A stretch of 64,000 nt of DNA from positions 3,498,990 to 3,562,989 of the forward strand of contig NC_087387.1 of assembly GCF_963675165.1 (NCBI RefSeq). The letters are read 5' to 3'. Positions 3,191 to 40,949 of the stretch are shown piece after piece. Position 1 is the first letter of the stretch. Every line of letters begins with the position of its first letter. A program made the position numbers and the translations under genes. The stretch comes from Halichondria panicea (taxonomy: Eukaryota > Porifera > Demospongiae > Suberitida > Halichondriidae). The notes below the pieces were generated by a model. It saw nothing but the letters and a program-made list of their open reading frames with translations, had not been told where the DNA came from and did no database searches.

Positions 3191-3234
3191 TTTATTGCCA
3201 TAGTTTGGAGGCAACAAAAGTAGAGGCAAAGTGA

Positions 3235-3990
3235 TGCATTCCAATGACGTAAGCGTGTCACGGATGGCTTCAAATTTTCTACCGTTGCCAATCCTTCCCT
3301 TCCTATATCTTTGATTGAACGTACCAATGTATACGAAGATGTGATTGACTTGTATCGCGAAGTATCCAATCTTTATTTACGATGGAGGAGTTATTTGAAG
3401 GAATAACTATTTTGATACCTATGCTACATCCTCAATCAGACTTGACTCTACTTCCGATCATACCAAAGTTGGAGGCCCATTCGCATTGCTTGCCTACTCT
3501 TCCACCAAATGTTCTTTTGGATTCTTTTTTGGATTACATCACCCTCAAACGTGCCCTACTTCAATCGAAGTGTGAAGTATTTTCTTCTGAATTACAAGAC
3601 GAGTTAACTTGCCCAATTTGGCTGTGTGCTTTTGGCTGCTGCCAACTCCTTCTAATCTGATGATGATGATGCAACAAGTTGCTCGATATGAGTTCCTGAC
3701 TGATAAATATGGTATACTTCCCGATGACATTAAGTTTCTGCGAATTCTAGTTTTTATCGCGACAGGAATCTAGAGTGTGTGGAGCCATGATGGGCACTAT
3801 GCAGCCAAATGAATTGGGTCTCTTCCTACGATTTGTTACTGGAAGCTGTGTGTGCAATACAATCGATTGCACTTTGGAATAGAAGTTTCTACTTCACTGA
3901 CTTCAGGAATGACTTCGTAAGCTCGTACAAACGAAGAATTTTCATGGAGGATGGAATCAGCGTATGAATCAGCGTTTATTGAACTGAACT
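3235..3990 (+). pseudogene. Decayed HECT-like E3 ligase C-terminal fragment
   Basis: Three forward frames carry pieces of one protein. The first is VYEDVIDLYREVSNLYLRW (about 3331-3388). The second is MQQVARYEFLTDKYGILPDD (about 3669-3728). The third is NELGLFLRFVTGSCVC (about 3808-3855), followed by DCTLE and, in another frame, EEFSWRMESA near 3940. The FLRFVTGS segment and the tail resemble the C-lobe of HECT-type proteins common in transposon-rich invertebrate genomes. Stops and frameshifts separate the pieces, and the stretch where the catalytic Cys would lie appears shortened, so this is not functional. Family assignment is from motif memory only. A second, better HECT gene of transposon origin lies at 32945-34450. 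Confidence 0.4.
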
Positions 3991-4029
3991 TGAATTATAA
4001 CTGAGGCCATTTAGTCTGCATTTTTGTAT

Positions 4030-4940
4030 AATTATATTGTTGTGATGCCATGAGATGTTATACGACATTTTTGTATTGACACTATGATGAGATCCCGTTC
4101 GTAAGAAGTAGCCCACCATCGTAGGTCGGATCGAAAACCCACATTCAACCAAATCAGATGGTGCAGTTCTTTTGCTACCGTGGACAATGCGATCATTCTT
4201 CTCAAAAATGACATGTTGCAGCTGACCTGACCAATCAGGGAGATTAACTCCTACGTTCGGACCAACCTCGGATTTCTCTCTGTAAACGAATGAGTTTTTC
4301 CTGGCATGCCCAAGAAAGTTAACCGCTTAGCAATCGGGACCCCTAAACGAGCACAAGTGACTAGCGTCTGAGCGAGCGCCAGTTGGGTGTTGGGGGCACC
4401 AAATATAAATAGTCGTCCAAGTAGTGAATGGCTCGGGTCCCCTGCTGGCCGGCGTTAAATATCTTGGGAGCCGATCTTAAACCAAATGGCAGGAAGCATC
4501 GGCATAGAGGTTCCCTCTCCACGACATTACCCAACAACAGACGATCCTCGGGGTGAACCCTGTATGCACTCTCAATATTCAACTTTGCAAGCAGCGACCC
4601 TTTTCCCAATTCACTAAACCTTTGAACTGCTTCGTCCACCGAGGTGTACTTTTAATGAACATACTCCCGTTCGATACCATCATTAACACTCGCACCCGCA
4701 GGATGCGACAGGCCTAAAATTAGTCTCCACTTTCCCAGTTTGGGGATAACACAAAACCGGCTGACCTGCATCTGTGCCCCCACTCGTGGGTCAAGAGGAC
4801 GACCCATTGAAAGTTCCTTGCCGTCAATAATCTCACTGCTTAGCTTTTACCGAGGTGCAGACACAATCCTAATAACGGAAGCCAATCCGAAAGCGACCGC
4901 TCTCAATGTAGGCTGCATACATGACTCGTCCATTCCCTGA
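4030..4940 (-). pseudogene. DIRS-type reverse transcriptase / RNase H fragment
   Basis: On the minus strand the order is SRFCVIPK, LGLSHPAGASVNDGI, GKGSLLAKLNIESAYR, then LPFGLRSAPKIFNA, then HYLDDYLYL (the catalytic YLDD box, about 4425-4400). Downstream, in a disturbed frame, are GFRSDLRWW and FLRRMIALS, matching the start of the RNase H part of the second copy. The 92-residue open frame at 4361-4639 covers the RT core only. Frameshifts flank it on both sides. In the family this enzyme copies the element RNA. This copy cannot make a full product. Confidence 0.75.
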
Positions 4941-5289
4941 CCACTAAGGGGGTGGTCACTTCTAGTATCGGTATCTAGTATCGGTATCCTTCCTTCAAAC
5001 AGTCACTGCTATACATTAACATAATATCAAGGGTGTAGTAAGCTAGAGTGCAAGTGCGCTATAGCGTTAGTGGTCAGGCCAAGGTAACCATTTTACTATT
5101 ATGATATTGACGACCATTACATCATATAATGAGGTACTTACCACTAGCACTTGCTAATTAATTTTTTTTTTTGACAACCATAATATATTTGTGCATGCAC
5201 TGTAATAACACTGGAATAAATAAGTCTGCGTAACAATCGGTATATCAAAACAATCAGATCAAAGGTTGTACAGGATCCTCTCTTTTCCT

Positions 5290-5870
5290 GTCATCACACC
5301 ATTTCTTGTGAGGTCCTGCACACCGGGAGCTCAAAGGGGGCAATTCTCAGCCTCGCATCGGCCAGGCCGTCATTCCAGGCTCCCCTCCTTCGCTTCTTAC
5401 GAGGGCTCTTTCGAAGGACCCGGGTGGCTCATTCTGGGAACAGTTCTGCTTGGTTGCAGGGAACATTCCTCTTGACCGTAATCCGACGCCGTGCAGATCG
5501 AACAGAATTTGCCCCTTCCTCTTTGAGCTAAAAAGGTTATCAAAAGACGTCATCTGCTGGCGGAACAGTGAGCCACACCACGTCCTCCACAGTGCTGAGC
5601 TCCTTAGTACCCAACTCAGTATGTCAGGGAACCTCCATATTGTCTTTGAGGGAGCTCCACAAACTCGCCCTTAATGATTCGTTTTACCAGCCTGACTGGG
5701 ACCACGGGCAACGCTTCCCCGAGGCTCTGGTCGGTCCACTACCTAAGTTCAGGTCACCTCCTGTGCAAGGGGGCTCGATCAGTTTGCAACCATATTGTGT
5801 GCAGGGTCTCACTCAAAGACCTAGAGCTGCTGCTAACCTAGTTGGTAATTATACTTAGTTGGTAATTAGA
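5290..5870 (-). pseudogene. DIRS gag-like remnant
   Basis: The minus strand carries LGEALPVVPVRLVKRIIKGE followed by FVELPQ (about 5730-5645). This resembles the conserved core of DIRS-like gag proteins that precedes a cysteine-rich segment. Further on, a region rich in Cys (FCSIC, EECSLQP) may be the remains of the zinc-binding part. Stops interrupt it. It lies upstream of the RT fragment in the correct order. The forward-strand frames over the same bases are shadows. Confidence 0.5.
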
Positions 5871-6305
5871 ACATATTGCAAAGTGGGTGTGGTTTTCTAT
5901 GTGTGGTTTTCTATATGTAAGTATTTATACCCATGGCAACTGCTTATTCATCTAAAAGCAGAGTGACACCTTCTCCTCTACTGCTCGCCCTCTAGCCGCC
6001 ACATTTTCTTCTCTCACTCTTTTCTCACTTCGCTCACGGTACTACTCTTTTCTCACTCTACTCCCACCGCTCACGGTACGTTGTGACTCATCACCCAGAG
6101 GGTCTTCTTGAGTCGGGGTGTGTGTGTGTGTGTGGGTGGGTAGGTGGGTAGGTGAGACTGAGAGCATGTAAACGGGGCCTCTCGGAGTGTGTGTGGGCAT
6201 GTGTGAGTGTGTGGGCGAGGTCACTTCCGGATCTGGTTGTTGATCTGGTTGTTGACTGACTCTGGATCCTATACGTAAGACTCCATGCTTCTTTGCCGTC
6301 CATAG
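5871..6305. repeat. Pyrimidine-rich and (GT)n/GTGGG low-complexity stretch
   Basis: A C/T-rich block with repeated 'ctcacggtac' elements lies at about 5960-6080. A GT-rich microsatellite with GGGTAGGT steps runs from 6116 to about 6225. Open frames across it (repeated Thr-His-Pro) are low-complexity artefacts. Confidence 0.6.
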
Positions 6306-8940
6306 TGCATTTTATTGCATGCTAGTCATACATGCTACATGCCTTATTATCACGACACCGTTTGCTCTAGTTACCGTTACCCGTGGCGCGCGTGGGCGGC
6401 CACGGGTCCGTTGGTCGGTCGTTTTGTCACAGGTATATCTGCTCACCTGGGTACCACAGTGGCAGATTTTGATGTTAAAGCAGCTACACATGGCCTGATA
6501 GTAGAAAGCTAAAACTTACTGGTTGGTTGTTGGCTGACCCATGCAGTCCACAGTACATGTCCTCACATGTACTGCTCCATGCCTCCTGGTTTAACGCTCT
6601 TGAGTTGCTGTGCTAGTCATACATGCTACATGCACTGCATCATCATCACTCTTCTGGTTTCTTTATTATCATGTCACCAGCCGAGGGTTTGTTTGTTTGT
6701 TTGTCTGTTTGTGATGAGTATCTACTCACCTGGATGCCTTCACAGAACAATATCTTGATTTAAATAGTGGCTTCTTTGTCGAGCAAAATCAGGTCTGCTT
6801 ACCTGCGTTTACAGTATGACTTTTGATAGTGGCAGCTTTCGGTGTTAAAGCTTCTTTGTCTAATAAAAAAAGCGAACAAAATGTAGAACTTGCACATGCG
6901 TTACTTATAACTGAAGTGATCCTGTACCAAGAACAATGGAACAGGGTCACTAAAGTAGAAAGCTGTATATACCAGGAACAATGGAACAGGGTCACTAAAG
7001 TAGAAGCTTCACTAAAGTAGAAGCTATAGCTCCCCTACTCCGTGCAGCCTGAGACTCCAGGCTTCTTTACTGTGATCCTAATCCACAGTGCCAGTGCCAC
7101 TACCTGTTCTCAAATGTTTCAGCATGCCTCCAGTATTTTATTGCTCCTGAGTTGCTGTGCAAGTCATACATGATAACAATTATATTTCTGCATTATATTT
7201 CTGGTTTCTTTTTAATCATGTCAAATCATGTCACCAGCCGAAGCCGAGGGTTGTGCTCTAGTTTGTCGTTTGTCATGAGAATCTCTACTCACCAGCCTTC
7301 ACACAACAATATCAGATATATCAGATTTTGATGTTAAAGTTTCTTTGTCGAATAAAAGCAAACAAAAGCAGCTCGGCCATTATTTTCATTGTGAGTTTTC
7401 CACATGGGTTACTTACAGCTGAAGTGATCCTGTACCAGGAACAATGGAACAGGGTCACTAAGTACAATAGCTACCTACCTCTGCTGACTACGTATTTGCA
7501 GCTGAAGTGATCCTGTACCAGGAACAATAAGAGTGAATGGTCCAGGCCTAGCTGTGATCCCAGTCCACAGTGCATGCCAGTCCACAGTGCATGTCTCATG
7601 TGACATGTACCACTCAATGTTTCAGCCTCCAGTGTTTAGCTATTGAGTTGCTACATGCACTGCATTATTAGTTTGTTTGTTTGTTTGTTTGTTTGTAACA
7701 ACTCACCTGGATGCCATAGCACTGCGTTTACAGCATAGATAGTCTTCACACAACAATATCTTGGTGGCAGATTTTGATGTTAAAGCTTTTTTGTCGAGTA
7801 AAAGCGAGCAAAAACTAAGAACTTGCCACATGGCCTTGAGTCCTTGAGTCAAGGTACAGGATCACTTCAGCTAAAAATACGTAGTCAAGGATTGATTATG
7901 TATTTTCAGCTGAAGTGATGAAGTGATGAAGTGATCCCGTACCAGGAACAATTGAATACTGTCAAGAAAGTAGAATTGTGACTGGTTGTATCCGTACTCC
8001 AGAGCAGGCTGCATGTACGTTGTTAGTTTAGTTTTATTGCTTTTGAGTTGCTGTACTGTGCTAGTGCATGCTAGTCATACATGCTACTTCTTTATTATCA
8101 TGTCACCAGCCGAGGGTTTGCACTTTAGTGCTCTAGTTTGTCTGTTTGTTACCCGAGGTGCGTGTGGGCGCGCGTGGGCGGCCACGGGTCGGTTGTTGGT
8201 TTGTTTGTTTGTGTGATTTTTTCTACTCACCTGGATGCCACAGCACTGCCAACAATATCTACATCATTCTGGTTTCATGTCACCGTTTGTGCTCTAGTTA
8301 CCTTACCCGAGGCGCATGGGTTGTTTGTTTGTCTGTTTGTGATGGAATTTTCTACTCACCTGGATGCCACAGCACTGCGTTTACAGCATGACAGTATCTT
8401 GATTTAAATAGTGGCATGTTAAAGCTTACGAAGTAGCTATATAATAGAAGCAGCTATATAATAACAAAATGTATATAATAACAAAATGTAGCTTGAACAG
8501 AACTTGCACATGCGTTACTTATAACTGAAGTGATCCTGTACCAAGAACGATGGAACAGGGTCACTAAAGTAGAATGATTATACCAAGAACAATGGAACAG
8601 GGTCACTAAAACAGGGTCACTAAAACAGAAAGCTTGAATTATAGCTCCTGCTTTTAGCTCTGGGTGGACGTGCATATAGTACCACTAGTCTACCTGTTCT
8701 CAAATGTTTCAGCATGCCTAGTTTATTGTTCGTCATACGTTATATTAATTTCTGGTTTCTTTATAATCATGTGACCAGCCGAGCTCTAGTTTGTTTGTTT
8801 GTTTGTTTGTGATGGGATTTTCTACTCACCACAGCACTGCGTTTACAGCCTTCACACAACAATATCTTGATTTAAATAGTGGCTTCTTTGTCGAGCAAAA
8901 GCTAAGAAGCTTGAACAAGCTTGTGAGACTAGGTCTGCTT
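6306..8940 (+). repeat. CR composite tandem repeat, array 1 (+)
   Basis: Several irregular units share a fixed order of boxes. Box 1 contains cctgtaccaggaacaatgg followed by acagggtcac. Box 2 contains gactccaggcttcttta. Box 3 contains tttcagcatgcc. Box 4 contains tcatgtcaccagccgaggg. Box 5 is (gttt)n followed by actcacctggatgcc, then tttaaatagtggcag and ttaaagcttctttgtcgag. Box 6 is a diverged version of box 5 starting gtctgcttacctggatgtt. Units are truncated or have gained boxes such as the GC-rich gcgtgggcggccacggg. I see no protein. Short open frames here recur only because the repeat recurs. Confidence 0.85.
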
Positions 8941-10300
8941 ACAAAATTACATGTGAGAATAGTGTGAATAGTGTCTCGTTAGTAATAGTGTCTCGTTAGT
9001 ACTAGCTGGGGGCTGGTTTTAAATATCATTATATATTTTTGGTCACCGATGCTTTATCTTTTGCAGGTAAGTCGTTTATTGAACTCGTTGAACTCGTACA
9101 CTATCTATTCAAGATACCAGACGAATACCAGACGTCCAATCCTTCTTAAGCTGTCAAGATCCATTAGAGAATCAACGAGGTGGTGGACAATCCAAATGTT
9201 GAAGAATTTACGAAGAATACCCGAGTCATTAACTAAAAGGACCAGCTCGTGGGAACTGTAGAGGTGGTAGTAAACGAAGTTCTACATGTACAGATGGAGA
9301 GAACATTCAACAGTATGTATAATTGCAATGTCATGGTTACTGTTTTGATTATATGAAAATTGATTATGATGGATGATGATGAGACATAATTATAATTAAC
9401 AATTGAACCCAAGAACCGCCATGAGCTGGCAGCTGTAGATCTGGACTTCTCTTTCGGTTTAGAAATTAACTGCTTTCTTAATCCTTTGGATTTCTGTTTC
9501 TGAACTTTTCAACCCATGCACTTGCCAATGAAAATCCACGAATTTTTACCCAATCTTCGACAATCTGAACTTTTCAACCCATGCACTTGCCAATGAAAAT
9601 CTTACCCAATCTTTGACAATCATTCTTAACAGGGCCCAGTCTGCACTGACAATACACCACCAGAAAATTAACATCCTCATTCTCGAGAATGGCAGCAATG
9701 ATCATTGGTGCTTCGAAGCCCACTTCTGCGATTCATGCTCACCTTCACTGCCCTTCACTGCCCTCGTCCAACAAATCAAAAATACAAAGTAGCACGGGTT
9801 GATTTTGGAAGCTGAGCCTGCAGTAGACCATAGATCTGGTAAGGGCGCTACATGTTGTACTTGGGTCTTGCCGTGGATAGCTTTGAACATTAACCCTTTA
9901 ACCGCCACAGGCCGCCCGCAATAGCAATAGTGACTTTTTTTGCGAAATTCTGCGATACTTAGGAAGTAGCTCGAACTACGCACATCCCTGTATAGAGGAA
10001 GAGCACGTGTCTAGAAATTTCCAAGCCACGTTGCTATGTTAAAATTTCATTAGCATCTTACTGCACAAAGTTTATACTAGGTTGTTTACTTGTACCGATG
10101 TGCTTGAGGACAGCAATGGCGATGTCTCCTCTGGTGATGACAGTGCCTATGAAGGAGTAGGATACCTGGGACTGAGGACATGCATGACATGGACCTAGAC
10201 GCTAGAGCTATGGACCAGGACGGTGAAAGACCAGGATAGGGCTCACTGTGTGACTCTGGCAAGTAGTATAGTATAGCTAGAATATCAGTAGTAAGTATAG
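8941..10300. other. Unrecognised stretch; possible piggyBac end near 9890
   Basis: The forward strand at 9085-9330 carries a weak open region (ELVHYLF, NPNVEEF) that I do not recognise. The minus strand at 9702-9983 has a 93-residue frame, also unrecognised. A near-duplicate of about 45 bp (aacttttcaacccatgcac) occurs at about 9499 and 9566. At 9890-9906 the sequence ttaaccctttaaccgcc looks like a piggyBac-type end after a TTAA, and an acidic stretch EDSNGDVSSGDDSAYEG lies at about 10107-10157, but no right end was found. Confidence 0.3.
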
Positions 10301-15222: not shown

Positions 15223-16516
15223 TGCTCGTTTAAAGCTTCGTTGTCTAATAAAACCGAGCAAATTTGCGTCAACCAAGTAGAAAGCTGTATATACCAAGAA
15301 CAATGGAACAGGGTCACTAAAGCAGAAAGCTTGAATTATAGCTCCTGCTTTTAGCTGACTGGGATCTAGGACCATACTTCATTTGCTGTGATTTGCTGTG
15401 ATCCTAATCCACAGTGCATATAGCCTGTTTTCAAATGTTTCAGCATGCCTCCAGTCTGGTTTAGTTTTATTGTTCCTTAGTTGCGTCATACGTGATAACA
15501 ACAGCACTGCATTATATTTCTGGTTTCATGTCACCAGCCCAGGGTTTGCACTTTAGTGCTCTAATAGTAGTCTGTTGGTTTGTTACCCCCGCGGCCAGCG
15601 GGGTCTGTTGGTTTATTTGTCTGTTTGTCACGACTCACCTGGATGCAGCCTTCACATAACAATATCTTGTTAGCAGATTTTGATGTTAAAGTCTCTTTGT
15701 CGAACAAACTTGCCCGTTGGCAGCTGCTAACTACACGCGGCCTTTATTCGAGATACCCTATTTACATTGTGATTTTTCCACATGGGTTACTTACAGCTGA
15801 AGTGATCCTGTACCAGGAACAATGGAACAGGGTCACTAAGTAGAAAGCTAGAATTATCTAACTCTGCTGACTATGTATTTGCAGCTGAAGTGATCCTGTA
15901 CCAGGAACTAAAATTGTGCTGGATTCCAGCCTCTATAGTCCACAGTGCATGTCTCATGAATAAAAGCTAAAATTGTGACTGGTTGCTGGATCTCCAGCCT
16001 GGCAGGACTCTCTCTAAGCCTAAGACTCCAGCTGTGATCCCAGTCCACAGTGCATGTCTCATGTGACATGTACCACTCATGTACCCTTTCAGCATGCCAT
16101 GCCTCCAGTGTTTAGCTATTGAGTTGCTGTGCTGGTCATACATGCTACATGCATACATGCTACATGCACTGCATTTATCTCATGTCACCAGCCGAGGGTT
16201 TGCACTTTAGTGCTCTAGTTTGTTACCCGAGGCGTGTGGGCGGCCACGGGTATAGTAGTCTGTTGGTTTGTTTGTTTGTTTGTCTGCTTGTGACCTGGAT
16301 GCCATACTCACCTGGATGCCATAGCGCAGCGCTGCGTTTGCAGCATTCACAGAATAATATCTTGATTTAAATAGTGGCAGATTTTGATGTTAAAGCTTCT
16401 TTGTCAAGCAAAGCTAGGTCTGCTTACCTGGATGTTCTAGCACTGCGTTTACAGCATGAGTAGCCCCCACACAACAAGTTAGTACTTTTGATAGTGGCAG
16501 CTTTCGAAAGGCGATT
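15223..16516 (+). repeat. CR composite repeat, array 3 (+)
   Basis: Two full sets of boxes are seen: ccaagaacaatggaacaggg, tttcagcatgcc, catgtcaccagcc, (gttt)n with actcacctggatgc, ctgtaccaggaacaatgg, and again. At the right, boxes 5 and 6 lie side by side (16305-16420 and 16421-16505) and show that the two are diverged copies of one half-unit of about 100 bp. The array ends next to the 10.8-kb Mutator-like element. Confidence 0.85.
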
Positions 16517-16567
16517 AATAACAGGGCGAATTTTTATTTTGGGCTCAGTATTTTACGGAATCACGTA
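16517..16567 (+). repeat. Left 9-bp duplication and TIR of the Mutator-like element
   Basis: AATAACAGG at 16517-16525 is followed by the terminal inverted repeat starting GCGAATTTTTATTTTGGGCT and running to cggaatcacgta. It pairs with 27283-27324. Confidence 0.9.
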
Positions 16568-16800
16568 AAACAGCCAAAAACGGACAACATAATTATAATG
16601 ATAGTACAAAGGACCGCAGAAAACAGAAAGTAGTGATGGATATCATATGGATATGAATGAAGAGTTAACAGTTTAAAGTAAGTATTAGTCCTATCAAGTA
16701 GGCCATTGTTTACAGGCTTTAACTTTTAGGTTCAAATTGTGGACATTTTTTGGTCTTTTGGCTCTTCCTAAAAGTTGTGTTAAGTCTGTTTCAGGAAGCC

Positions 16801-19800
16801 TGTCACTGGAAAAATGGTCCTGAAAAAAATTGTCCGGGGACGAATTTTTTCAATGAAAATTTCGGTCCGGGGACTGAAATTTTCAGAAAAAATTGGTCCC
16901 CCCCCTGAAATAATCAGTCCGGCTAGACAAAAAGACGTCTCTGGACCAGGAGTGTATGTAGGGCAACCTAGGGTCCTCTCCACATCATATTACGACATAC
17001 AGATACGACATACAGATACGCACATACCCATGTACAGGGATGCAGTCACATAATATTCAGGAACTATAGCAGCCTTGCTTGTCAGCCAGGTGTACTAGAT
17101 AGAGCTGCATGCAGCATGTGAGGCCTCCACATTCTTAAGACTCAGTTTTCAACTGTTTCAAAAGAAAGATCTATTAACGATTGACAGTTTTACAGCTTGA
17201 TAAAATAATGTTACTAGACTATACTACTACATATAATTATAATGCCGAAGTTCTGTCCGGGAATAGATACAGATGGTAGTTTATGGACGGTTAACAGTTA
17301 CGTCTTAGTTCAAGACTAGTTTAGCACTGCACTGCATACAGTGCCAAACAGCTGATTTTTTGGCGGCAGGAACATTCACACAGGTGTCGTAATGATACCA
17401 CTCCTTGCATGTGCTGCATTCCACCCAGTTTTCCATAGTTGCCATCTCTGGCATTCTGCATAGGCAGTACACGGGGTATGTATCGATTGACACAATTGAG
17501 TCAGGAGCACGACGATACTTCTTAATTGGAAAAGGTAGTATTTGTTGCTTTTGAAAGCAAGAAAACAAGTGCTGCCTCATTTTATGTTGATTGTACTGGA
17601 AGCTTCCAGGTGAGTGGCCAAGAGCAAGAGCTGTTGCATTGGCTATAGCAAACAAGCCACAGTCACATCCTCCTCCCTGAATGTGTACGTTCATGAAGTT
17701 TAGAGTGATTTCTTTCGCCTCCGTATGCAACAAAGTTGCAATCTGAGCTTTGACTCCCGTGCTAACAGAACGATACATACTGTCATACACGTTAACCACT
17801 GGGTGAAGAGTGCCGATAGTAGAGACTGTGAGCCAATGGCCATGGTGATTGTTTACGACCTGTACGAACTCCCCACTTTCAACCTCGTATGAGAAGACAA
17901 TACCTTTGATAACATCCTGCAAGCCAGGAACTGCTGGAAACGCTCTTTTGAGAAGCTGTTGTGCTGCATTTATCAGATTGTCTGTCAACCATCCAAGTGG
18001 ATTTAGTAGAACTTCCCTGTCATAGACAGTTAGACGAAGCTCAGGTATCCAATACAGGATTTTAGTGGCTTTTGGTGTACACGTATCCACATCAATGACG
18101 TTCTTCTTTGATCGCTCAATGACTGCTTGAGGTATTTTGGCCTGCCTACGATGAAACATCCTCTTCTGATGAGTCGGCTTGAAGGAGGGTGTGATGCGAG
18201 GGGTCTTAATCAATTTCAGGGGTGCGCCACGAGGGGTTTGAATCGATTTCACACAAGGGGCCTCACTTGATTTCAAAGGAGGGGTCTTAATCAATTTCAC
18301 ACGAGGGGTCTGAATCGATTTCAGGGGTGTGACACGAGGGGTCTTCAGGGGTGCGACACGGGGGGTCTCACTTGATTTCAAGGAAGGGGTCTGAATCGAT
18401 TTCAGGGGTGTGACACGAGAGGACAGACGAGAAGTTGCCAGAGAGAGAATACGTCTCTTCTTGATTTCACCCTGAACTGTTGGAGTTTGAGATTTGGGTT
18501 GTTTTGGTGTGCTGCAAAACTGAGGTTGCGGTGTTTTGGATATCATTTGGCTAAGAGATAGCGGTGGTGCCGGTAGCAATTTTTCATCCTGATCAATAAA
18601 TGAGAATGATGGTTCATCTGACTGAAACAAGCCACTTGTACCATTGTGTGCTATTGGTGACAAACAATCTTGGGACTGATTAGTGGGACGGATAGAGTCA
18701 TCATGGGGGTGTAATTGAGCAATGTTCAAATGAGCGAAATCATGATGAGAGTCCAGACAAGTATTGTCCAATTGAGCGAAGTCCACCTTAGGGGAGTCCT
18801 CATCATGAGGGGGGAGTAATTCAGCAAAGTCCAAACGAGCAGATTCCAGGTGAGCGGAGTCCTCAAGAGGGGATTCCAGGAGAGCAGAGTCCTCAAGAGG
18901 GGATTCCAGGTGAGCGGAGTCTTCAAGAGGGGATTCCAGGTGAGCAGAGGTCATGTGAGCAGAGTCCTCAGGAGGAGAGTGAGCAGAGTCCATTGATCCA
19001 GAATCGCAAGTAGGTGGATCATTGTACGGCTTGAGATGGGGTCCTGACACTAGTACTGTCTTTGATCTATCGCTTATCTCATATGCACCTCGTGGTTTAA
19101 CAGAGATGATTTTGTAAGGGCCAGTGTACCTCTTCAGCTTCCCACCTTTTGTCTTTTTGCGAGTATGATTTAGTTTCAGGACTAATTGACCAACCATATA
19201 TCTCTCAGGCTGTGCATGTTTCTTATCATACAGTTCCTTCTGTTTCTTTTGGGCGGCAAGAATATTGGTTTTTGCTTGGCTCAGTCGTACATGATTGTGT
19301 TCACGAGTACGTGTAACATCTAGATTGGGCATTTGCTGCTGATACTCGCGAGCAGCTTGGTCAGGAGAAATGCTTGAGACTTCTACATCAATGGGAAGAG
19401 TAGCTTGACGATTGAACATGAGTTCAAAAGGAGTAAACTTCGTTGAATTATGACGAGAGGTATTGTATGCGAAAACACATGTGTCCAGGTAGCTACTCCA
19501 GGTTTCACGCTTGTTGGACACAAACTTCACTAGCATGTTTTGCAACGTCTGATTGAAACGCTCGTCCAAGCCGTTAGTCTAGAAAATAATATTATAGTTG
19601 AAAATACATTTTAAGTATAGGATATACCAGGAAGATATGCACCTATATATATCCTCCGCTATACCGTGATTACTTCGAGGCATAGCCAAGGGGTATATAA
19701 CCATGATATAGCGGAGAATATGATTATGTGCATATCCTCCGAGTACAAGTGCGATATAATTATAGTTTTAAAACTGTAGTGCATACCTGAGGGTGGTAAG

Positions 19801-21114
19801 GAGTTGTAAGGCGACGCTGGATCCCCAGGAGAGAACAGAGACTAGTGTCTAAATCATTGTTGAATTCACGTCCTTGATCTACCCGAGGCAGACCCATTCT
19901 CATAAATACCTGAGAAGGAAAAGTGTGTGATCATTATTTATTGCCCATGTGTGCGTGCATGCAGTGGGTGCATTGTGTATGTGTATGGCATTCATGGCAT
20001 TCATACATAATTTATACCTTGAACAATGATGTTGCTACTGATGATGCACTCTTGTCAGGTGTAGGAATAGCTTCTACCCACTTGGTAAAGTAATCGCTCA
20101 TGGTTAAGATGTAGCGGGAACCATCGTTAGCAGTTGGAGAGAGAGGACCAACAAAATCAATTAAACTGCACACGGATGGGGTGAAGTTCGGGCCTGCCAG
20201 TAGTTAGCTTTCGATTAACTCGCTGGCAAATGTCACAAGTAGACACCTATAAAATAAACACATAAATATTGAGGGAAGGTGTTCCTGTTTGAGACTTTGT
20301 ATACATGTAGGTGTAACAATAATACAGAACCAAGTTGACATCCCAATAATTAAAGGTATTGAATTTGACTATTATGTGCACTAAAATACAAGGACAGATA
20401 TAAGCAAATCTACTAACCATTTCTTTCACGTCCTTTACCATGCCATGCCACATGTAACGCTCCTTAATTCGGGCAAGTGTGCGAGTCACCCCCATATGTC
20501 CAGATGTTTCATCAACATGGCAAGCGAACAGTATTTTCTTTCTCTCTCTTCGGTTGATAATGTATCGGATCAACACATCATCCTAAAATATCGAGAAGGC
20601 AATAATAATTATATATAGGAGCTATAATACCAGACTGAGAATCGAACATAGATGACGCGTTATATATACCTAGAGATGGCCACTCCTGTAATGATTGTAA
20701 TTTCAACTACATTACAGATACACCAACTCACTCTGTCCTTTCTCTTGTGTTTGTACATCAAGTCACCATTGTTCACTACAAACTGCTTGGCCTTTCTTCT
20801 GATGACCCTTTTTCTTCCCTCTTTACAGTCATCAGGGTACTCCTTGGTGGTGACATAGTGGAATACCTCTTCTATCAGCTCTTCCTCCCCTGTGTGTAGC
20901 TCAAGCTCCATAAGAACAAACTTTTCAGCTGCATCAAAAGCTGTGCATGCATGCATTGATTTTATTATAGCCACATGGAACAGGCAACTCATTGCGCAGC
21001 TCAGGACTACTTTTTTCGAGGGCGGACCAACATTATCAGCTAAAAATTGGTCCGGGGGACCGAAAATTTCAGTCCCCGGACTGAAATTATCGGCAGACCA
21101 AAATTTTCGTGACA
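16801..21114 (-). mobile_element. Ginger1-like DNA transposon nested in the Mutator-like element
   Basis: The left end reads TGTCACTGGAAAAATGGTCC from 16801. The right end, reversed from 21114, reads TGTCACGAAAATTTTGGTC. AGCC flanks both sides (16797-16800 and 21115-21118), a 4-bp target duplication. TGT..ACA ends, 4-bp duplications and an integrase-type transposase with a GPY/F module define Ginger1 elements. Subterminal blocks built on ggtccggggactgaaatttt occur at both ends (about 16830-16930 and 21000-21100). The single gene runs on the minus strand with about five exons. The region 16945-17300 between the gene end and the left TIR is non-coding. Confidence 0.88.
17305..20911 (-). pseudogene. 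Ginger1-like transposase: integrase + GPY/F + Ulp1 + PHD, frameshifted
   Basis: Model exons on the minus strand are 20911-20732 (60 residues, ends KHKRKDR), 20582-20418 (55 residues, with HVDETSGHMG of the H2C2 zinc domain), 20246-20018, 19909-19787 (41 residues) and 19578-17305 (last 754-residue frame). All junctions have GT and AG. The catalytic triad is visible: D in LIDFVGPL, D in DQGREF, E in LDERFNQTL. GPYKII is the GPY/F module. Low-complexity SPLEDSAH and TPRVTPLKSI repeats follow. Then comes a C48 peptidase (GHWLTV, VYDSM, GCDCGLFA: His, Asp, Cys all present) and a C4HC3 PHD finger at the C-terminus. Exon 3 is 229 bp and needs a frame change between HPIRV and LIDFVGPL, with several residues missing there, so this copy is probably broken. 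The role is DNA cut-and-paste by an integrase fold; the protease probably acts on SUMO-like substrates. Confidence 0.85.
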
Positions 21115-21533
21115 AGCCTTTTCACTGGTCTTCCTTGGGGGGCCAGTTTTGTCCCTCTGAGTATCCCCTTTCTGTAGTCCGCCTGAGTTTACTTTGATAT
21201 ATTTCCCTGCCCTTCCATTTGACCATACAGTCCCTGTGGTACGTACATACATGTATAGATGGCATCCAAATTCTGTATAGTAATTCTGTGTAGTAATACA
21301 TTGTGCGCACTAATGTAGATGTTAAATTTGTGGTTAAAACTTACGATCTGACTTCCCAAAGTTATGTAGGGCATATGAAATAGCAGAATCGGGTGAGTGC
21401 GATGATTTCAGTTTAGTGTATGACTGAATGAATGTTATGATCTCCTACATCCATTTTTTCTGAAAGATCCTCCACAATTTCATTGAGTAATTGTTTGTAA
21501 TGTGTCCTGTCGTGTGTTTGTAAGCTATGGTCG
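21115..21533. other. Mutator-like element, non-coding part
   Basis: This is sequence between the Ginger1-like insertion and the SWIM region. Short frames on both strands have no recognisable domain. Confidence 0.4.
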
Positions 21534-23300
21534 TCATCCTCCTCGGCATGTGTCTTGAGGACCAAGCTCATGTTTTATTGTGTAATCGGTATCGGGGTGT
21601 TCCATCCCAGTATATGTGTCTTCAAGTAGATCTGCATAGAAATCAATTTCTTGTACACGTTGTTTCCCATGTGCAAGGATGGCTAGTATATGTCTAGTTT
21701 GCTTATCGTGTAGGGGGAGCATATTGATAGTCTTGACCTCAAACTTCTTGGCAAGAGCTGCTTGGTGTCTACAGGCAGCGCCTGTGCACCCTGTTGTACA
21801 TGAGCATGTACCAAGTTCCATGTCGGTCACATATTAAAGCAATCCAATATTAGGAATGTTTTCCTCTACTGTGTATGTTGAATCGCGGACTTGCTTCATG
21901 TTTACTATATTTAAGGTTAACTTAGAAAGCTCTCTGTACCTTAAGTTCAATCCTGGTTTGTAGCGACTGTGTGCTATATCTAAGAGCCTGCCTGCCTAAT
22001 AAACCTCCATTGTTGCTGTTATAAAATCAAACATTTGCACAAGGTTGTATGCCTTAACTCTACCGAATATGATCTCTTTAAGGACTCTAATACCAGCCTC
22101 AGCATAGTTGTTTGTGTTATTTCCCCGGGGAGAACAAGCTGAAGGAAGATTGTTACAATGATACCCCACTTGTATTAGCAATATGCCTGATGGCACAAGC
22201 GCACACCTTATTACGGCAATCGGGTGAGCTTGTTTTTTGTGACAGTACAGCAAGCTTGGATCGTTACAACTGCCCGACATTTATTATGAGTACATCAAGT
22301 TCAGCAGGGGGGATACCACTTGGGGTAGTTATCACATCTGGTGAATCAGAGACCACAATAACGGAGGCATTTTCATATCTAAAGACAGTAATGCCCAAAA
22401 AAAGCTTTTATGGGAGGAGTGGAAAAGGACCGGCTATGTTTATAACCGATGACTGTGATGCAGAGAAAAATGCACTTAAATCTACTTGGCTACATTCTAC
22501 TCAGTTGCTATGCATTTTTCACTATTTGCAAAGTTGGTGGAGGTGGCTATGGAATAGTGAACATAGTATTGAAAATGCTGACAGGCAGCCTTTGGTACGA
22601 AAACTGGTTTATACAACTGACGAAGCACATCTTGTAAAACAGTACAGCGACCTACTTTCACCTATGTCTACTGTATTTACACACAAAAGTACCCCCAGCT
22701 CATAAACCGCCTTAAGACATTTTGGAAGAGGAGGTCTGAATGGGAGGTCTGAATTCCTACTGCTGTAGAAATGCATTGCCACCGTCACTGCCATGTTTAG
22801 CATTATAGGTCTTAACCATTTCTTGCAGCTTATGGAACATGTGTTTGCCATTTGTCTCACCAAGGTTATGCACCCTCCACTTTCTGAATAGATAGTAAAC
22901 ATCTGTATATAGTGGGTTTAATGAGCGGACTTTCTCCAATTGTCCATCCTCTTTATCATATTGAATCCCTAAGTTGAGGTTATGAAGATGCAATGCTGAT
23001 GCCGGTGAGTGCCCTTGAGCAAAGTATGATTGAATTTTGTCAATTGTTTCACCACTCATAGGCCTAAAACTTAATGCTTTGGCTGAATGTATTGTATGAT
23101 TGTGATCCCAAAAAAGGGTAACTTCACAAGGGTGTGTTTTATGTTTTTTATTTATGGAATACTGTGTGTTGTGTACTTTAAGTGTCTGTTTTCTTGTCTC
23201 GAAGGTGCAGGTCTTTCTTTCTCGTTTTATTCGAAGGTTTGCGTTTGTGTTGACAGTGTCTTACAGTCTTGTACACAATTCTTTCTTGTACACAATTCTT
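21534..23300 (-). pseudogene. MULE transposase with SWIM zinc finger, internally inverted
   Basis: Minus-strand pieces: an N-terminal zinc-binding region ending LFWDHNHTIHSAKALSF (about 23110-23060), then GHSPASALHLHNL and LNPLYTDVYYLFRKW (to 22757). The catalytic middle lies on the PLUS strand at 22124-22743, with FCDSTASLDRYN (first Asp, about 22241) and MFITDDCDAEKNAL (second Asp, about 22445). The minus strand resumes at 22123 with NNYAEAGIRVLKEI, holding the Glu, then AHSRYKPGLNLRYREL and the SWIM finger CSCTTGCTGAACRH (about 21810-21770). A DDE triad split over two strands shows an inversion of about 620 bp inside the gene. There are further frame breaks near 22700 and 21840. It would cut the 9-bp-duplicating TIRs but cannot be made from this copy. 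Confidence 0.85.
22124..22743 (+). other. Inverted internal segment of the MULE transposase
   Basis: Both edges are visible. The left edge is at the palindrome ccccgggg (about 22121-22128), where the minus-strand frame GNNTNNYAEAG ends and the plus-strand frame PGENKLKEDCYND begins. The right edge is at a short direct repeat, gaggtctgaat, present twice at about 22732-22757. The segment encodes the DD part of the catalytic core. Confidence 0.75.
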
Positions 23301-23439
23301 TTTCCACTCGTCTTTGTTCCCCTACTTATTCTGTACGTAGTTTTTGTGTGATCATAAAACTCTTGTATCCACTGAATCCACTGAGTTGCTTCACTAGTGG
23401 GATGTACATTAATAAGAAAAACACTTGAAACTACAAAGT

Positions 23440-24094
23440 TGTTTGTGTTAAACGTGGCACTTTTGGTTATTGATATTGACTGGAATATGTACGAATGTTG
23501 TGATGGTAGTACCAGGCTTAAGATGTACCAGGCTTAAGAGAGGTGGTAGATTGTCATGATTTATGATAGTATCTGTGGCTGGTGTTTCTGCCTCTATATC
23601 ACAACTACCGCTGTTCAGCGGTAGAGGAGGTGAATTCGGAGGAGTGGTGATTGGACTGGTTGGCGGCGGTAGAGGAGGTGAATTCGGAGGAGTGGTGATT
23701 GGACTGGTTGGCGGTGGAGTAGGTGAATTCGGAGGAGTGGTGATTGGACTGGTTGGCGGTGGATGAGGTGAATTCGGAGGAGTGGTGATTGGACCTGGTT
23801 GGTGGTAGAGGAGGTGAATTCGGAGGAGTGGTGATTGGACTGGTTGGCTGTAAGCTGGTAATCGAAACTGTAGCTGTATGTGCGCTACAATCGGCTAGGT
23901 TGTACGATTGTAGTGACGGTGAAGTGAGGGATGTCCGAAGGATATCAGAGAGTGTACATTGCTTTGATGATGCTTCAATCTTTTTTTTGTCAATGACTTG
24001 CACACCAAAGGATGTTACTTTAGGAAGTGAAGACAACGCTATGCGGTGGAAGCTCTTTGCTCTCTTTGGCTCTAAAAATATATTAGGAGCATAA
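23440..24094 (-). pseudogene. Thr/Pro/Ser-rich linker with 54-bp tandem repeats (MULE polyprotein region)
   Basis: The minus strand reads IFLEPKRAKSFHRIALSSLP at about 24080-24020, then SFGVQVIDKKKIEASSKQ, then a run of SPITTPPNSPPLP repeats (23620-23850, about five copies of a 54-bp unit containing ggtgaattcggaggagtgg). It ends with NHDNLPPLLSLVHLKPGTTI (about 23555-23495). Small indels shift the frame between repeat copies. It lies between the Ulp1 and transposase regions in the same orientation and may be a spacer of one protein or the start of the transposase gene. The glycine-rich plus-strand frames here are shadows. Confidence 0.5.
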
Positions 24095-24439
24095 TACAGA
24101 CAGCAATTGCGGTCTGTTCTCTCACCGGCAGGTCTACATTATTGTGTGAACACAAGGGGTTGGGTAAATCTGTTGATTACATAGTTGATTACATAATAGG
24201 TACATATACTGTATACTTACAATAGCTTCCCGTTTAGAAGTTCCTCATACATTATCTTTCTGATTATGCCGATATCCATCTATACATGATTTAAGTAAAG
24301 ATGCCAGTGTGGTACGTTTGAATGCACACATGTCCTACATTTACTTGTTTGAAGTTAATGGGTTCTTCCCTTGTGATGTGTAGAGCATACTGTTAATAAT
24401 CAAGGGGCTTAGTTTCATTGTTAGCAGATTGATAACGGC

Positions 24440-25416
24440 ATTTACCTGGCATACGAAGACGCCACAATCGATCCCATTTGTCTGGTCTGGTATTTTCTGT
24501 GTGTACAATATCACTATAAAGTAAAGTACCATGAATGACAATCCTACAAACCTTTTTAGCAATAAAGGACCACTCTCTCCAGTCCATACCTCTATCAGAA
24601 AGATCGTTCAAATAGGACCTTACAAATGAAATGAGCAGTAATGTTGAATTCTTCTATACTTACTGTACACTTTACGTCACTTGTCCAACAAAACTTATGT
24701 TCTCGTTCAAAAGAGAGTCGTAGAACTCTATTTCTTTCTTAGGAATGTTGATGCTCTTTAATGTTTACACGTATATGTGCATGTATACATGGATCAACTG
24801 TTTACTGCTATTATGGGTCACTATACTCACCAAAAGTGTCCAGTGATTACGTTAATAATGAAAAACAGTCATTCTTTCTGAAGAATGTTTGCCTATAATT
24901 ATGTACATGAATTTATTAAATGGTCGTAAACATGCCATATGTAGACGCACTTCTCCATACACGGTTGCGGTCTAAGTATACCTTTTTGAATAGACTAGGG
25001 AGACCAGAGAATCCTCTTGTTTGGTACATGTCTAGGAATAGGCTAGTAAACACCTGGATGTGCTTCCCTCTCTGTATTGAGATACTTGTGCAAATTTTCG
25101 CACAAACTACCAATTTCGTATTTTGACGTTGAACCTATTGTGCCGTAGGTACTCTACTGATAAAAATAAGAAAACTTCCACCATACGAAAATTGCGTAGT
25201 ACCACAATGTCCTACTTTTAAATTATTAAATTAATTACATGTACCTCAGTGGCTTCTGTTGATATCAGCTTCAGGTATGTTTCAATTATCTATAGAGTAC
25301 AATCATTATAACTGTGTGTCATCATGTGATGCGTTATACATGTACCTCAGCATTTAGCCATCCAGTTCCTAAAAGTCTTCGACTGGTATTCAATGACAAA
25401 ACTGTTGGGTGGTCAC
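24440..25416 (-). CDS. C48 (Ulp1/SENP-like) cysteine protease, multi-exon
   Basis: This gene sits inside the Mutator-like element. Exons read on the minus strand: 25416-25346 (LLGTGWLNAE), 25289-25245 (IIETYLKLISTEATE, exactly 15 codons), others between, one ending at 24831 with RNHWTLL, one near 24750-24675 with IPKKEIEFYDSLL, 24618-24552 (YLNDLSDRGMDWREWSFIAK) and 24496-24446 (KIPDQTNGIDCGVFVCQ, 17 codons). All have GT/AG edges. The protease triad is complete: His in NHWTL, Asp in FYDSL, Cys in DCGVF. The family cleaves SUMO/Ubl-type conjugates. It is downstream of the USP region and upstream of the linker and transposase in the same orientation, so it may be part of one polyprotein gene. 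The middle exon at 25113-24916 is uncertain. Confidence 0.75.
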
Positions 25417-25507
25417 CTGTATTGTATGGAACAAATTGTATGGAACAAATACAGCTGTTAATGTCTCCCATTGCCTCGGTTTCTAACTGCAGTACATGCG
25501 TACTTAC

Positions 25508-27191
25508 CTTGAACCAATTCATAAAACAACATAAACGGGCTTTGTTGCAATACAGTTGCTAAGCTCACTGGTGTCACCTAGTTTCAAATTGTACAAAATT
25601 AATGTCTATCCGTGTTGTATAATTATGTCATACTTTACTTACATCACTGTCACTTGCACGAAACCATTTAGATTGATCCTTGATTGACCGAAAGAAGGCT
25701 GTGTAATGTTTCAGTGTGACAGTCAACTGATTGTGTGCCATCAATTTGTACACACTTCGTTTGCTTGGAACGTGGAGAGCTATAAGTAAGAAAACAGTAA
25801 ATAAAGAAAACAGTAAATAATACAAGTTATTACTGTGTAGATATAATAAGTACCTGAATTTGGACTTTGAAGTTTGTACGATTTCTGTATGAGAATACAT
25901 CATTACTCTTTTCTGTTTATGTTCATCCCGCTTGAAACTTCGTGTATCTTGGTTGATTTACGTGAATACAGAGGCATTTTGGTAACGTCCCCAGTTCATT
26001 ACTTATCTCCAATTCTACCTTCTTGTCAAGGCATCTGTAGTAATTATAGGACTCTGTAACTACTATACTGTATTGTTTCTATGGCAATTGAATGCATGCG
26101 ATATAATGTACGCAAATATCACACGTGACTTCTAAATTAATACCTGACACACTCTCCCACACTTTCTCCTTCCACCCACTCAGAAAACAAATCTTGGACA
26201 TTAAGCGGTCTGGTGTCCTGAAATGTTTTAGACACAAACAATTTTCTTCAAGTGTTAAACAGGCAAGCAAGCAAGCTAGTACATGAACACTGACCAGTAT
26301 GTGCATGTATAATAGATTGGCGCATAATAGATGGAACAATTTAACTTACACGTGTATGTAGTTCTATGCACGTGGTTGTTGTCGTGTTTGGATGTTGAAT
26401 TTGGTGACCACACCTCACACATTTGACTAATGGTAATAATATTAGTATGTTTATTATTACTGTCATTACAACTTTACTTTGGCTTGTGACAGTTGCTGAT
26501 AAGGTTGAGGCAATGACGTCCTTGGCCCTAGATTATTCATTGACCTTAAGTAATGATAGTTATATGTTCTAGTACTAACCTTGAATCTACTTTCCCCTCG
26601 AAGCTAGCTAAAAGAGCCAAGTAGAATTCGTGAGCATCATATTGTTGCCCCTTCTTTATGTCCAATGATACATCTGTTATACAAACACTTATTTTTGTTA
26701 TAGCAGAAAATGCTGTCATTTACCGGGTAAACAAGAGAGCATAGGATGTACTGTGACAGATGTAGAGCGACTTTGTACGTATGAGTAGTCACTCAGTACC
26801 CTTCCAATTGCACCAATGCTACACAGATGACCTGGATTGAGATGGCACAGTACATCCATGCAAGCACCTTTTATGTCTATCTCCCTATATTAAGAGTCTA
26901 CTCTGTACTTACTAATCCAGCATACTAATCCAGCAACAGTTCTCGCAATCTCCTGAATGTACCCTGGAAAACTCATTGAAAATGCACGAGAAGCTGGGAG
27001 TGTTGAACATGCATTGAAGGACAGCATTCATATAGCAATTTGACGCTGGGTTGGTAAAGCCTGGTGGATAAGCCGTTGTACACCTCTCCTGGTTCTCTGC
27101 TATCATCGGTTAACTGGCTCAGAGGCTTGGGTTTCCTCTTGAGAGGGTCAGGTTTCTTCCTGGAAAGACACAATGGTTTCCTCTTGCTCAT
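25508..27191 (-). CDS. C19 ubiquitin-specific protease (USP) domain, multi-exon
   Basis: It starts with ATG at 27191 (MSKRKPLCLSRKK, basic) and, after a one-base frame change, continues GFTNPASNCYMNAVLQC, the Cys box with the catalytic Cys (about 27060-27010). Later exons carry GACMDVLCHLNPGHL (about 26865), IKKGQQYDAHEFYLALLASF (about 26665-26605), then a Cys-containing stretch around MSKICFLSGWKEKVWES (about 26210-26150), KHYTAFFRSIKDQSKWFRAS (His box, about 25705-25645) and the terminal MLFYELVQ (ends at 25508 before GTAAGT). The order and motifs match a complete USP fold. The family removes ubiquitin from proteins. It is the first gene of the Mutator-like element, so it probably serves the element rather than the host. 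The frame change near 27090 may inactivate this copy. Confidence 0.75.
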
Positions 27192-27282
27192 GTTGGCCAG
27201 CTGATACCTCTTCAATGTTTAAAGTTCGCGTGTAGTTGGAGGTAAACACGTGGGCATGGTATTATGGTATTATTCGGAAGTA

Positions 27283-27333
27283 TACGCGATTCCGTAAAAT
27301 ACTGAGCCCAAAATAAAAATTTGCAATAACAGG
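27283..27333 (-). repeat. Right TIR and 9-bp duplication of the Mutator-like element
   Basis: It ends aaaataaaaatttgc at 27324, the inverted partner of 16526-16567, followed by AATAACAGG (27325-27333). Confidence 0.9.
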
Positions 27334-36834: not shown

Positions 36835-38001
36835 TTATACGCCATGACGTATTTCCTGCTTCCCCGTATACACATCGAAACGACTGAAGTACCCATTGGT
36901 ACTATCTCCCAGTACCCACACTTTGATCCCACGCTTGATCGGCTTCATAGGCATATACTGCTTGAGAGCGGACCGACCCTGAAATTTGATCATTGCTTCA
37001 TCCACAGCAAGATTCTTGGATGGATTATACAAGGCTGAGAATTGCAAGCTGAAATGATCAATCACAGGGCGGACCTTACCCAGCCGATCAAACGTGGGAC
37101 TTCCTCTCGGAGCAAGATGTTGGTTGTTGACAAAGTGCAGGTACCGAGAGATTTCCCTGAAGCGCCACCGAGGAATCCTTGTCGTGATGGGGGCGTAGTG
37201 TGTAAGAGGGTCTCTACTCCAATAGTCGTCCAGAGATGGTAAGTGGACAATCCCCATAAGAATACAAAAACCCCAATACGCTTCCAATTCTTCAGTGTCA
37301 ATCTTCTTCCATTTATCGTACTTGTCATCTCCCATAACCTCCCTGGCGTATCTATTGCTCTCAGCCACTATTTTCTCCTGTAGTTCTTCGTTGACGAAGA
37401 GGTGAAAAATGTGTAGCGGGCAATCAGAGATCTCTACAGTGGGACCGGTCAGGGATGTGAAGGCGTTTACTGTGACAGTCGTCAGATTCTCAGACCATTG
37501 GGTAACATTTGCACCTGTTTTTATTTAAAAAATAATAATTTGTTATGAGCCTCTTCTGATGTTATTTTACCTGGAGGGGGTGGTGGCGGTGGCGGTGGCT
37601 GGTGGGGTGGTTGAGAGGGGGGTTGGTGGGGTGGTTGAGAGGGTGGTTGGTGGGGTGGTTGAGAGGGTGGCTGGTGGGGTGGTTGAGAGTGGGGTTGGTG
37701 GGGTGGTTGAGAGGGTGGCTGGTGGGGTGGTTGAGAGGGGGGTTGGTGGGGTGGTTGAGAGGGGGGTTGGGGTGGTGGGTCTAGGCCTGAGTCACTCGTA
37801 TCGTCTAAATAATAAGAACAGTGTTCATAATAGTTCTATGATTGTAGCAATTATGTATTTACCATATTCGTCGTCGTCCGACTCAAGGTCGGAAAATTCA
37901 TAGTCGCTACCTTCCTGCATAGGTTCTTCTGGGTCCTCCTCATCATCGGACAAGATATCCCCAAGTACCTCCTCCACAGTGAAGTGCTGTCTCTTGGTCA
38001 T
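36835..38001 (-). CDS. C-terminally truncated piggyBac transposase
   Basis: Three model exons: 38001-37863 (MTKRQHFTVEEVLGDILSDD, acidic), 37804-37571 (QPPSQPPHQP repeats) and 37514-36835, with GT/AG borders and a continuous frame of 350 residues. The last exon holds the start of the DDE domain: DDYWSRDPLTHYAPI, RWRFREISRYLHFVN, NLAVDEAMIKFQGRS (first catalytic Asp), QYMPMKPIKRGIKVWVL, NGYFSRFDVYTGKQE, then a new tail ending in a stop inside the TIR (36835-36837). Known piggyBac transposases are about 550-600 residues, so the second and third catalytic Asp and the cysteine-rich tail are missing. The open frame is clean, so a short protein is possible but cannot transpose. Confidence 0.8.
37572..37790 (-). 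repeat. 30-bp coding minisatellite (Pro/Gln/His/Ser)
   Basis: About six copies of a unit containing ggtggttgagaggg encode QPPHQPPSQP on the minus strand, inside exon 2 of the piggyBac gene. The plus-strand glycine/valine frames are shadows. Confidence 0.8.
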
Positions 38002-40917: not shown

Positions 40918-40949
40918 GTGTGACCTGTAGCCTTACCAATTTGTCTTTT

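Follow-up and report, generated by a model that had tools for sequence, protein, structure and literature searches.

A Mutator-like transposon lineage in the sponge Halichondria panicea whose main gene probably joins two proteases, of ubiquitin and SUMO type, to the transposase

The stretch of the Halichondria panicea genome analysed here (hereafter the window; 64,000 nucleotides, contig NC_087387.1, positions 3,498,990 to 3,562,989) contains a single copy, old and inactivated, of a Mutator-like DNA transposon (MULE). Between its terminal inverted repeats (TIRs) lie a C19 ubiquitin-specific protease (USP), a Ulp1/SENP-like protease and a MULE transposase, and a second transposon has inserted into it. 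We call this copy and its close relatives family A. The parts are listed below in window coordinates; we are highly confident of this anatomy, that is, of the borders and of the order of the parts.

16517–16525, no strand: target-site duplication, left copy AATAACAGG
16526–16567, plus: left TIR, 42 bp
16801–21114, minus: nested Ginger1-like element, 4,314 bp, ends TGTCAC
21537–22132, minus: transposase C-terminal part (NNTNNYAEAG...) and SWIM-like CxCxnCxH segment, with two in-frame stops
22133–22752, plus: MULE transposase core (PF10551, 7.2e-8), inverted relative to the other parts; borders approximate, by eye
22757–23430, minus: presumed transposase N-terminal part, placed by order and family resemblance
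23608–24133, minus: linker with motif YAPNIFLEPKRAK, then proline-rich repeats
24221–25416, minus: Ulp1/SENP-like protease region
25416–25346, 25289–25245, 24848–24831 and 24755–24697, minus: SENP exons
24618–24552, 24496–24446, 24389–24345 and 24279–24221, minus: SENP exons
about 25062–24920, minus: further SENP stretch, located through its resemblance to locus L009 and to family B
25508–27109, minus: C19 USP stretches
about 27065–26955, minus: USP Cys box
about 26700–26585, minus: USP QQYDAHEFY stretch
about 26426–26349, minus: USP zinc knuckle
about 26218–26142 and about 26040–25960, minus: further USP stretches
25779–25643, minus: USP His box exon, both borders AG/GT
25577–25508, minus: USP FMLFYE exon, both borders AG/GT
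27283–27324, minus: right TIR, 42 nt
27325–27333, no strand: target-site duplication, right copy AATAACAGG

MULEs commonly carry TIRs and make target-site duplications of about 8–11 bp; a SWIM finger is common in them, not universal. The window element has a DDE domain (PF10551) and, as the first-pass annotation of this DNA had described, a 9-bp duplication (AATAACAGG) that is identical on the left and right and 42-bp TIRs, the arms of which are complementary at 40 of 42 positions (95%). The duplication of L013, a copy of a second family (family B), measures 8 bp, as does that of L021, and a table in PMC6446971 gives the same range of 8–11 bp for MULEs. With up to three mismatches allowed, a 28-base core of the TIR matches the window at the two arms only, and never in 100 shuffles. 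In the 131-Mb genome, for which all counts of matches to family A given here are lower bounds, a 101-base piece of the left end, used as query, hit just the two ends of the window element, and longer queries recovered decayed family-A TIRs at three further loci. A short repeat immediately left of the insertion site (16414–16506) occurs also in L007, L011 and L002.

Both proteases are recognizable in the window copy. The USP has the motifs NCYMNAVLQC, QQYDAHEFY and KHYTAF, with Cys and His boxes in C19 order, and its Cys-box piece reaches 32.1 bits against PF00443 (cut-off, 23.9; E, 1.2e-7). The QQYDAHEFY and His-box pieces stay below that cut-off (14.2 and 14.5 bits), and for the latter TMEM70 scored higher (17.2 versus 14.5 bits). 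Hand-joined, the USP pieces come closest to chains annotated as ubiquitin carboxyl-terminal hydrolases 8 (1.6e-8) and 2 (3.2e-8). The Ulp1 has the motifs NHWTLL, FYDSL and GIDCGVF, with the C48 residues His, Asp, Gln and Cys in order; a single exon falls under the profile cut-off (19.6 versus 20.7 bits), and the hand-joined exons match SENP1, the closest solved relative, at 6.7e-17.

Both borders are AG/GT in six of the eight tested SENP exons; no AG acceptor precedes the NHWTLL exon and, where tested, no GT donor follows the FYDSL exon. Within the USP, the tested borders are those of the His box and FMLFYE exons. From the USP into the SENP, exons 25779–25643, 25577–25508, 25416–25346 and 25289–25245, all with AG/GT borders, read ...SDSD, VTPVSLATVLQQSPFMLFYELVQ, GDHPTVLSLNTSRRLLGTGWLNAE and IIETYLKLISTEATE across their junctions, with the G before DHPT spanning an intron. 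These four exons are consecutive and in frame; one spliced reading frame therefore runs from the last part of the USP into the first part of the SENP. Nine short genome matches on roughly 100 bases near 25086–25192 were taken as an unrelated repeat.

The MULE core scores 33.2 bits against PF10551 (cut-off, 27.6; E, 7.2e-8). It is open on the plus strand (22091–22705), amid the minus-strand NNTNNYAEAG... segment, SWIM region and presumed N-terminal part. In the related locus L001, the core, the NTNN segment and a SWIM-like segment follow in one order on one strand, and an internal inversion of about 620 bp (about 22133 to 22752) is the simplest account of the core orientation in the window, which may instead be an assembly error. 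The SWIM segment shows the CxCxnCxH pattern by eye and lies under the Pfam cut-off (PF04434, E 0.11). We take 22757–23430 to be the N-terminal part, partly from family resemblance; it has no meaningful Pfam match and no match in family B. The first-pass annotation had called a C19 USP, a C48 Ulp1 and a SWIM-type MULE transposase, all on one strand. Motifs and matches bear out the two proteases, and the profile search that it proposed places the C19 Cys-box piece and the MULE core above their cut-offs and the single C48 exon and the SWIM segment below theirs; the transposase call stands for the core, the SWIM finger is a candidate by its pattern, and the shared strand has to be given up.

A genome search found the window transposase core once, together with six relatives at 25–38% identity. 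Four of these six (L001–L004; those on C10 and C8 were left out) are 28–31% relatives of the core, and the roughly 10 kb taken around each gave no match to the USP or SENP of family A or B; L001 has a match to a Ginger-type Ulp1 (8e-8).

The proteases of family A recur elsewhere in the genome. The stretch from the transposase to the early Ulp1 was found once in full, relatives with a USP lie on C1 (at 7.31 and at 7.71 Mb) and on C5, and pieces of Ulp1 or linker lie on C1 (7.92 Mb) and C4. The TIR search that had been proposed for the source genome shows that L005, L006 and L007 each start with a partial right TIR followed by part of the USP, an arrangement that is therefore present at four places, including the window. 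L005 and L006 share flanking DNA and are counted as one insertion; L009 shares part of that flank. In L005, L006 and L009 the linker runs straight into left subterminal sequence, so that the transposase is absent, and the 10 kb taken from each of L007 and L010 contain no transposase match. The family-A relics found keep protease pieces and show no transposase, and the aligned copies have many deletions. TIR copies without the proteases had been named in advance as evidence against the proteases belonging to the element; the copies found keep protease pieces. A host gene that runs past the TIRs was rejected, as the USP part comes after the TIR at other loci too. We also set aside L008, the SENP-like exons of which lack the K/KIP intron, as a host SENP gene. 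In L007 (3020–3102), two family-A TIRs stand back to back, about 17 bases apart and facing away from each other.

Family B (MULE-B) has the same parts in a far less decayed form. PF10551 matches the genome 31 times and PF00443 125 times; a PF00443 match lies within 10 kb of three of the 31 PF10551 matches, namely the window and two copies of MULE-B, where roughly 0.26 would be expected. These two copies (L012 and L013, on C1 and C2) lie in carrier units of 13.5–14 kb that are 99.6–99.7% identical (with flanks, C1:8641118–8655132 and C2:2778152–2791645). In L013, MULE-B is 6,345 bp long, its TIRs measure about 60 bp (96% over 57 aligned nt) and the 8-bp duplication GTCAAGCA stands on both sides; shorter relatives with the MULE-B TIR occur elsewhere in the genome. 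The carrier is itself a larger element with inverted repeats, 6-bp duplications, an integrase (PF24764, 3.8e-73) and one frame with a HECT match (8.6e-9), which the three neighbouring frames lack. The HECT domain was rejected as a part of the MULE because MULE-B, within the carrier, is bounded by TIRs and a duplication of its own. The unit looks like an E3-ligase-like transposon that carries a protease transposon.

The order in MULE-B is USP, SENP, linker, C2H2-like fingers (by eye), MULE core and SWIM-like segment, followed by a PHD-like finger (PF00628, 21.9 bits; cut-off, 24). The gene model of L013 comprises 21 exons, with GT–AG borders at all 20 introns and no internal stop in 1,439 codons; its exon borders were picked by eye, and one donor was changed after a first frame had failed. 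Hand-joined pieces, which predate the final exon model, match PF00443 at 1.4e-23 (84.3 bits) and PF02902 at 2.8e-19 (70.3 bits), and the transposase frame matches PF10551 at 1.9e-9. By eye, the catalytic motifs of both proteases are kept. No ubiquitin-like domain is listed in the scanned pieces of family B. A 16-base exact match to the family-A TIR (TTTTGGGCTCAGTATT) occurs near an intron start in both copies (L013, 4251–4266; L012, 4214–4229).

A third locus (L027 on C11; locus C) has a SENP (1.5e-15) and then a MULE-B-like transposase (2.7e-28), on one strand and in the order of family B, with stops. Upstream, a 1.8-kb search gave a Cys-box-like stretch (0.012) and a GEQQDAHEFY stretch (0.003) in the expected order. 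Among 20 inverted-repeat pairs in L027, two are candidate element ends, and both enclose the genes: an inner pair (3111–3140 with 9134–9163), near which the 8-bp GATAAAAT occurs at 3095 and 9186, and an outer pair of 101 nt (2243–2343 with 9445–9545) flanked by the exact 9-bp duplication CCGCACGCA (2234–9554). A 218-nt inverted repeat (5460–5677 with 5787–6004) lies inside the SENP region of this locus.

There is good support for both proteases being part of the element: the link between TIR and USP recurs at three other loci (two of which are duplicates of one insertion), family B has USP, SENP and transposase in this order between TIRs of its own, and locus C repeats the SENP and the transposase firmly and the USP weakly. 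Families A and B are 25% identical in the USP (3e-21) and 32% in the SENP and linker (2e-29), the latter alignment crossing the post-SENP intron into LEPKRAK/LEPNRAK; at the position of this EP motif, locus C reads FHYNPNMFIEP. Four SENP exons have the same length in A and B (45, 51, 45 and 59 nt). A, B and C share the phase of the post-SENP intron; once this intron is removed, the frame carries on in all three (in C by reading), and the EP motif beyond the SENP becomes readable only then. The USP, SENP and transposase are likely to be one gene, because family B has a continuous spliced frame and the motif beyond the SENP is kept in A, B and C, and we consider it quite probable that the product is fused, as one polyprotein from one spliced mRNA. 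As A and B share the layout, exon lengths and EP motif despite only 25–32% identity of their proteases, and the decayed locus C has the SENP and the transposase in that order with weak USP remnants, the fused protease gene is probably an old part of this MULE lineage rather than a chance capture. In the main gene of the lineage, a deubiquitinase of the USP class, a SUMO protease of the SENP type and a linker would then probably precede the MULE transposase.

Several observations weigh against this interpretation. The gene structure was read from genomic DNA. The transposase cores of A and B are only distantly alike, with 22% identity and 5e-5 in one BLAST run; the match is missing from a stricter second run, and HHalign gives it a probability of 11%. 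The window copy is dead: it carries two in-frame stops and the nested element, its frame seems to break ahead of the USP Cys box and at NHWTLL (an unrecognised intron may account for these breaks), and it cannot make a working transposase. By eye, the family-A copies show no exons that are clearly better conserved than introns. In family B, comparison of the two copies indicates one lesion near the C-terminal end of each, a stop at the SWIM-like segment in L012 and a frame shift before the PHD-like part in L013, so that the last of the 1,439 codons are a shifted tail and the PHD-like part lies outside the frame. Both copies moved as cargo of the carrier, which leaves no proof of a recent jump by MULE-B itself, and the left duplication of L012 has one extra base. 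For 28 of the 31 PF10551 matches, PF00443 is absent from the 10 kb around them, and PF02902 is absent over that distance from all 31; short SENP exons, including those of the window and of family B, fall below the score threshold of this search. The USP of L027 rests on weak stretches, with Tyr at the position of the catalytic Cys and a Pfam match of 14.6 bits (cut-off, 23.9). Last, the post-SENP donor holds an in-frame TAA (window, 24221; L013, 3496; L027, about 6160), which would give a separate protease if the intron were retained; the stop follows from the phase-2 GTAAG donor alone.

We hypothesize that the transposase part of the fused protein would bring both erasers to the ends of the element and to target chromatin. 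There, the USP would keep ubiquitin off the transposition complex, and hence the complex away from the proteasome, while the SENP would strip SUMO from the complex or from host factors for silencing or break handling. The account as a whole, a lineage with a USP–SENP–linker–MULE gene that acts near its own ends, has our moderate confidence; this specific role, protection in place by both erasers at the element ends and target chromatin, is tentative. We infer translation as one protein, catalytic activity and role from the sequences. The first-pass annotation had suggested that the element edits ubiquitin and SUMO marks on its transposase or on silencing factors; the window copy cannot do so. 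In a narrower version, a fixed USP–SENP–transposase polyprotein would erase both marks at its own ends and so counter silencing and degradation, with alternative splicing of the post-SENP intron as a switch that yields either a free double protease or the tethered form; we think this version unlikely.

Other explanations of the proteases have to be weighed against the same loci. The proteases could be passengers, fragments of a host USP and SENP captured as in Pack-MULEs or by transduplication and without a role for the element. MULEs tend to pick up fragments of host genes, according to parts of PMC6446971, the relics that were examined are broken, as is the window copy, and the family-A copies show no clear excess of exon over intron conservation. 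We nevertheless regard passengers as highly improbable: the order, exon lengths and post-SENP motif are common to A and B at 25–32% protease identity, the SENP, motif and transposase recur in C, and family B keeps the catalytic motifs by eye, with the transposase in frame downstream. Less credible still is the insertion of a MULE next to or within an ordinary host gene, which the TIRs would then enclose by accident. The window transposase DNA was found once only in the genome search, as this would have it, but the TIR precedes the USP at four places (L005 and L006 being one insertion), and L007 and family B contradict it; we give this reading almost no weight.

The proteases might instead work unattached to the transposase and on the host in general, for instance as a USP–SENP protein of their own made when the post-SENP intron is retained. 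In A, B and C this intron opens with a phase-2 donor that holds the in-frame TAA, and in A and B it lies directly after KLL, where solved SENP1 chains end. However, the EP motif past the stop is kept in all three, so that splicing probably takes place at least some of the time, and intron phase alone explains the embedded stop; we doubt this reading. The fused architecture would equally suit a USP and SENP that serve as binding modules or as self-processing enzymes of the polyprotein, rather than as erasers of host marks. This, too, seems improbable, as family B keeps the catalytic motifs and its scanned pieces, with no ubiquitin-like domain listed, offer no obvious site for self-cleavage.

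Our preferred account, a lineage whose fused gene acts near its own ends, bears on why diverse transposons keep ubiquitin- and SUMO-protease domains. Retention of both kinds of protease in fusion with a transposase over a long divergence points to mark removal as a part of the transposition cycle, and erasing ubiquitin and SUMO marks may belong to the way of life of such elements. The nearly intact protein of family B offers a direct test object for mark removal.

Ginger1 elements have 4-bp duplications, TGT ends and a Gypsy-like integrase, together with Ulp1 or OTU, and the element nested in the window MULE is flanked by AGCC at 16797–16800 and 21115–21118. It has an integrase zinc finger (PF17921, 1.3e-15); C48 (17.4 bits; cut-off, 20.7) and PHD (18.6 bits; cut-off, 24) are both under threshold, and no integrase-core match is listed in the profile scans. 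Its Ulp1-like stretch is distinct from the Ulp1 of the window MULE and at best weakly similar to the family-B SENP (5e-4 in one run, unreported in a stricter one). Elsewhere in the window, the open frames 36835–37524 and 40195–40932 presumably resemble a piggyBac transposase and a DIRS-type RNase H stretch. Clusters of PF00443 matches, many of them with similar scores, lie at C3:6001207–6079190 and C14:1814209–1887303. A USP-like 1.85-kb repeat is 96% identical between L014 (3192–5045) and L015 (3217–5097); of the A and B pieces, just a USP Cys-box piece matched it, and L014 also has an integrase-like frame (by eye).

Patterns of this kind gave 3, 5 and 14 stretches in viral and prokaryote collections, none of which was confirmed. 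A USP and a SENP in one MULE gene did not turn up in full-text searches of open-licence PMC papers, a scope that leaves Repbase reports and most subscription papers outside. Single proteases in transposons are already in print. Excerpts of PMC2836005 describe Ulp1-bearing MULEs from hydra, lancelet, Arabidopsis, maize, rice and melon, and a figure legend there refers to the Ulp1 and PHD domains of Mutator transposases. These elements share with ours a MULE transposase with a C48 protease, and family B also has a PHD-like finger, but no USP is named in those excerpts, whereas here a USP precedes the SENP in one gene. Ginger1 elements with Ulp1 or OTU, covered in the same excerpts, likewise pair a transposon with a ubiquitin-family protease, and a Ginger1-like one lies inside the window MULE; they differ in having an integrase-type transposase, with the protease after the integrase. 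A Trichomonas protein with Transposase_11 and Peptidase C19 domains (PMC2836005) fuses a USP-type protease to a transposase of another family, with no SENP named in the excerpt.

Helitrons with VTD and OTU deubiquitinases come closer in having two protease classes per transposon: in the sections of PMC9741609 that treat them, 121 VTD Helitrons also hold OTU. They are rolling-circle elements, and those sections name no SUMO protease. The MuDR-6_HM group is an animal MULE group with a ubiquitin-family protease, of the ovarian-tumour (OTU) class in the relevant part of PMC6446971, the main text of which has no occurrence of Ulp1, C48, ubiquitin or peptidase. The role we propose has forerunners, as the excerpts of PMC2836005 suggest a part for the ubiquitin pathway in transposition, and those of PMC9741609 suggest that Helitron deubiquitinases protect transposition proteins from the proteasome.

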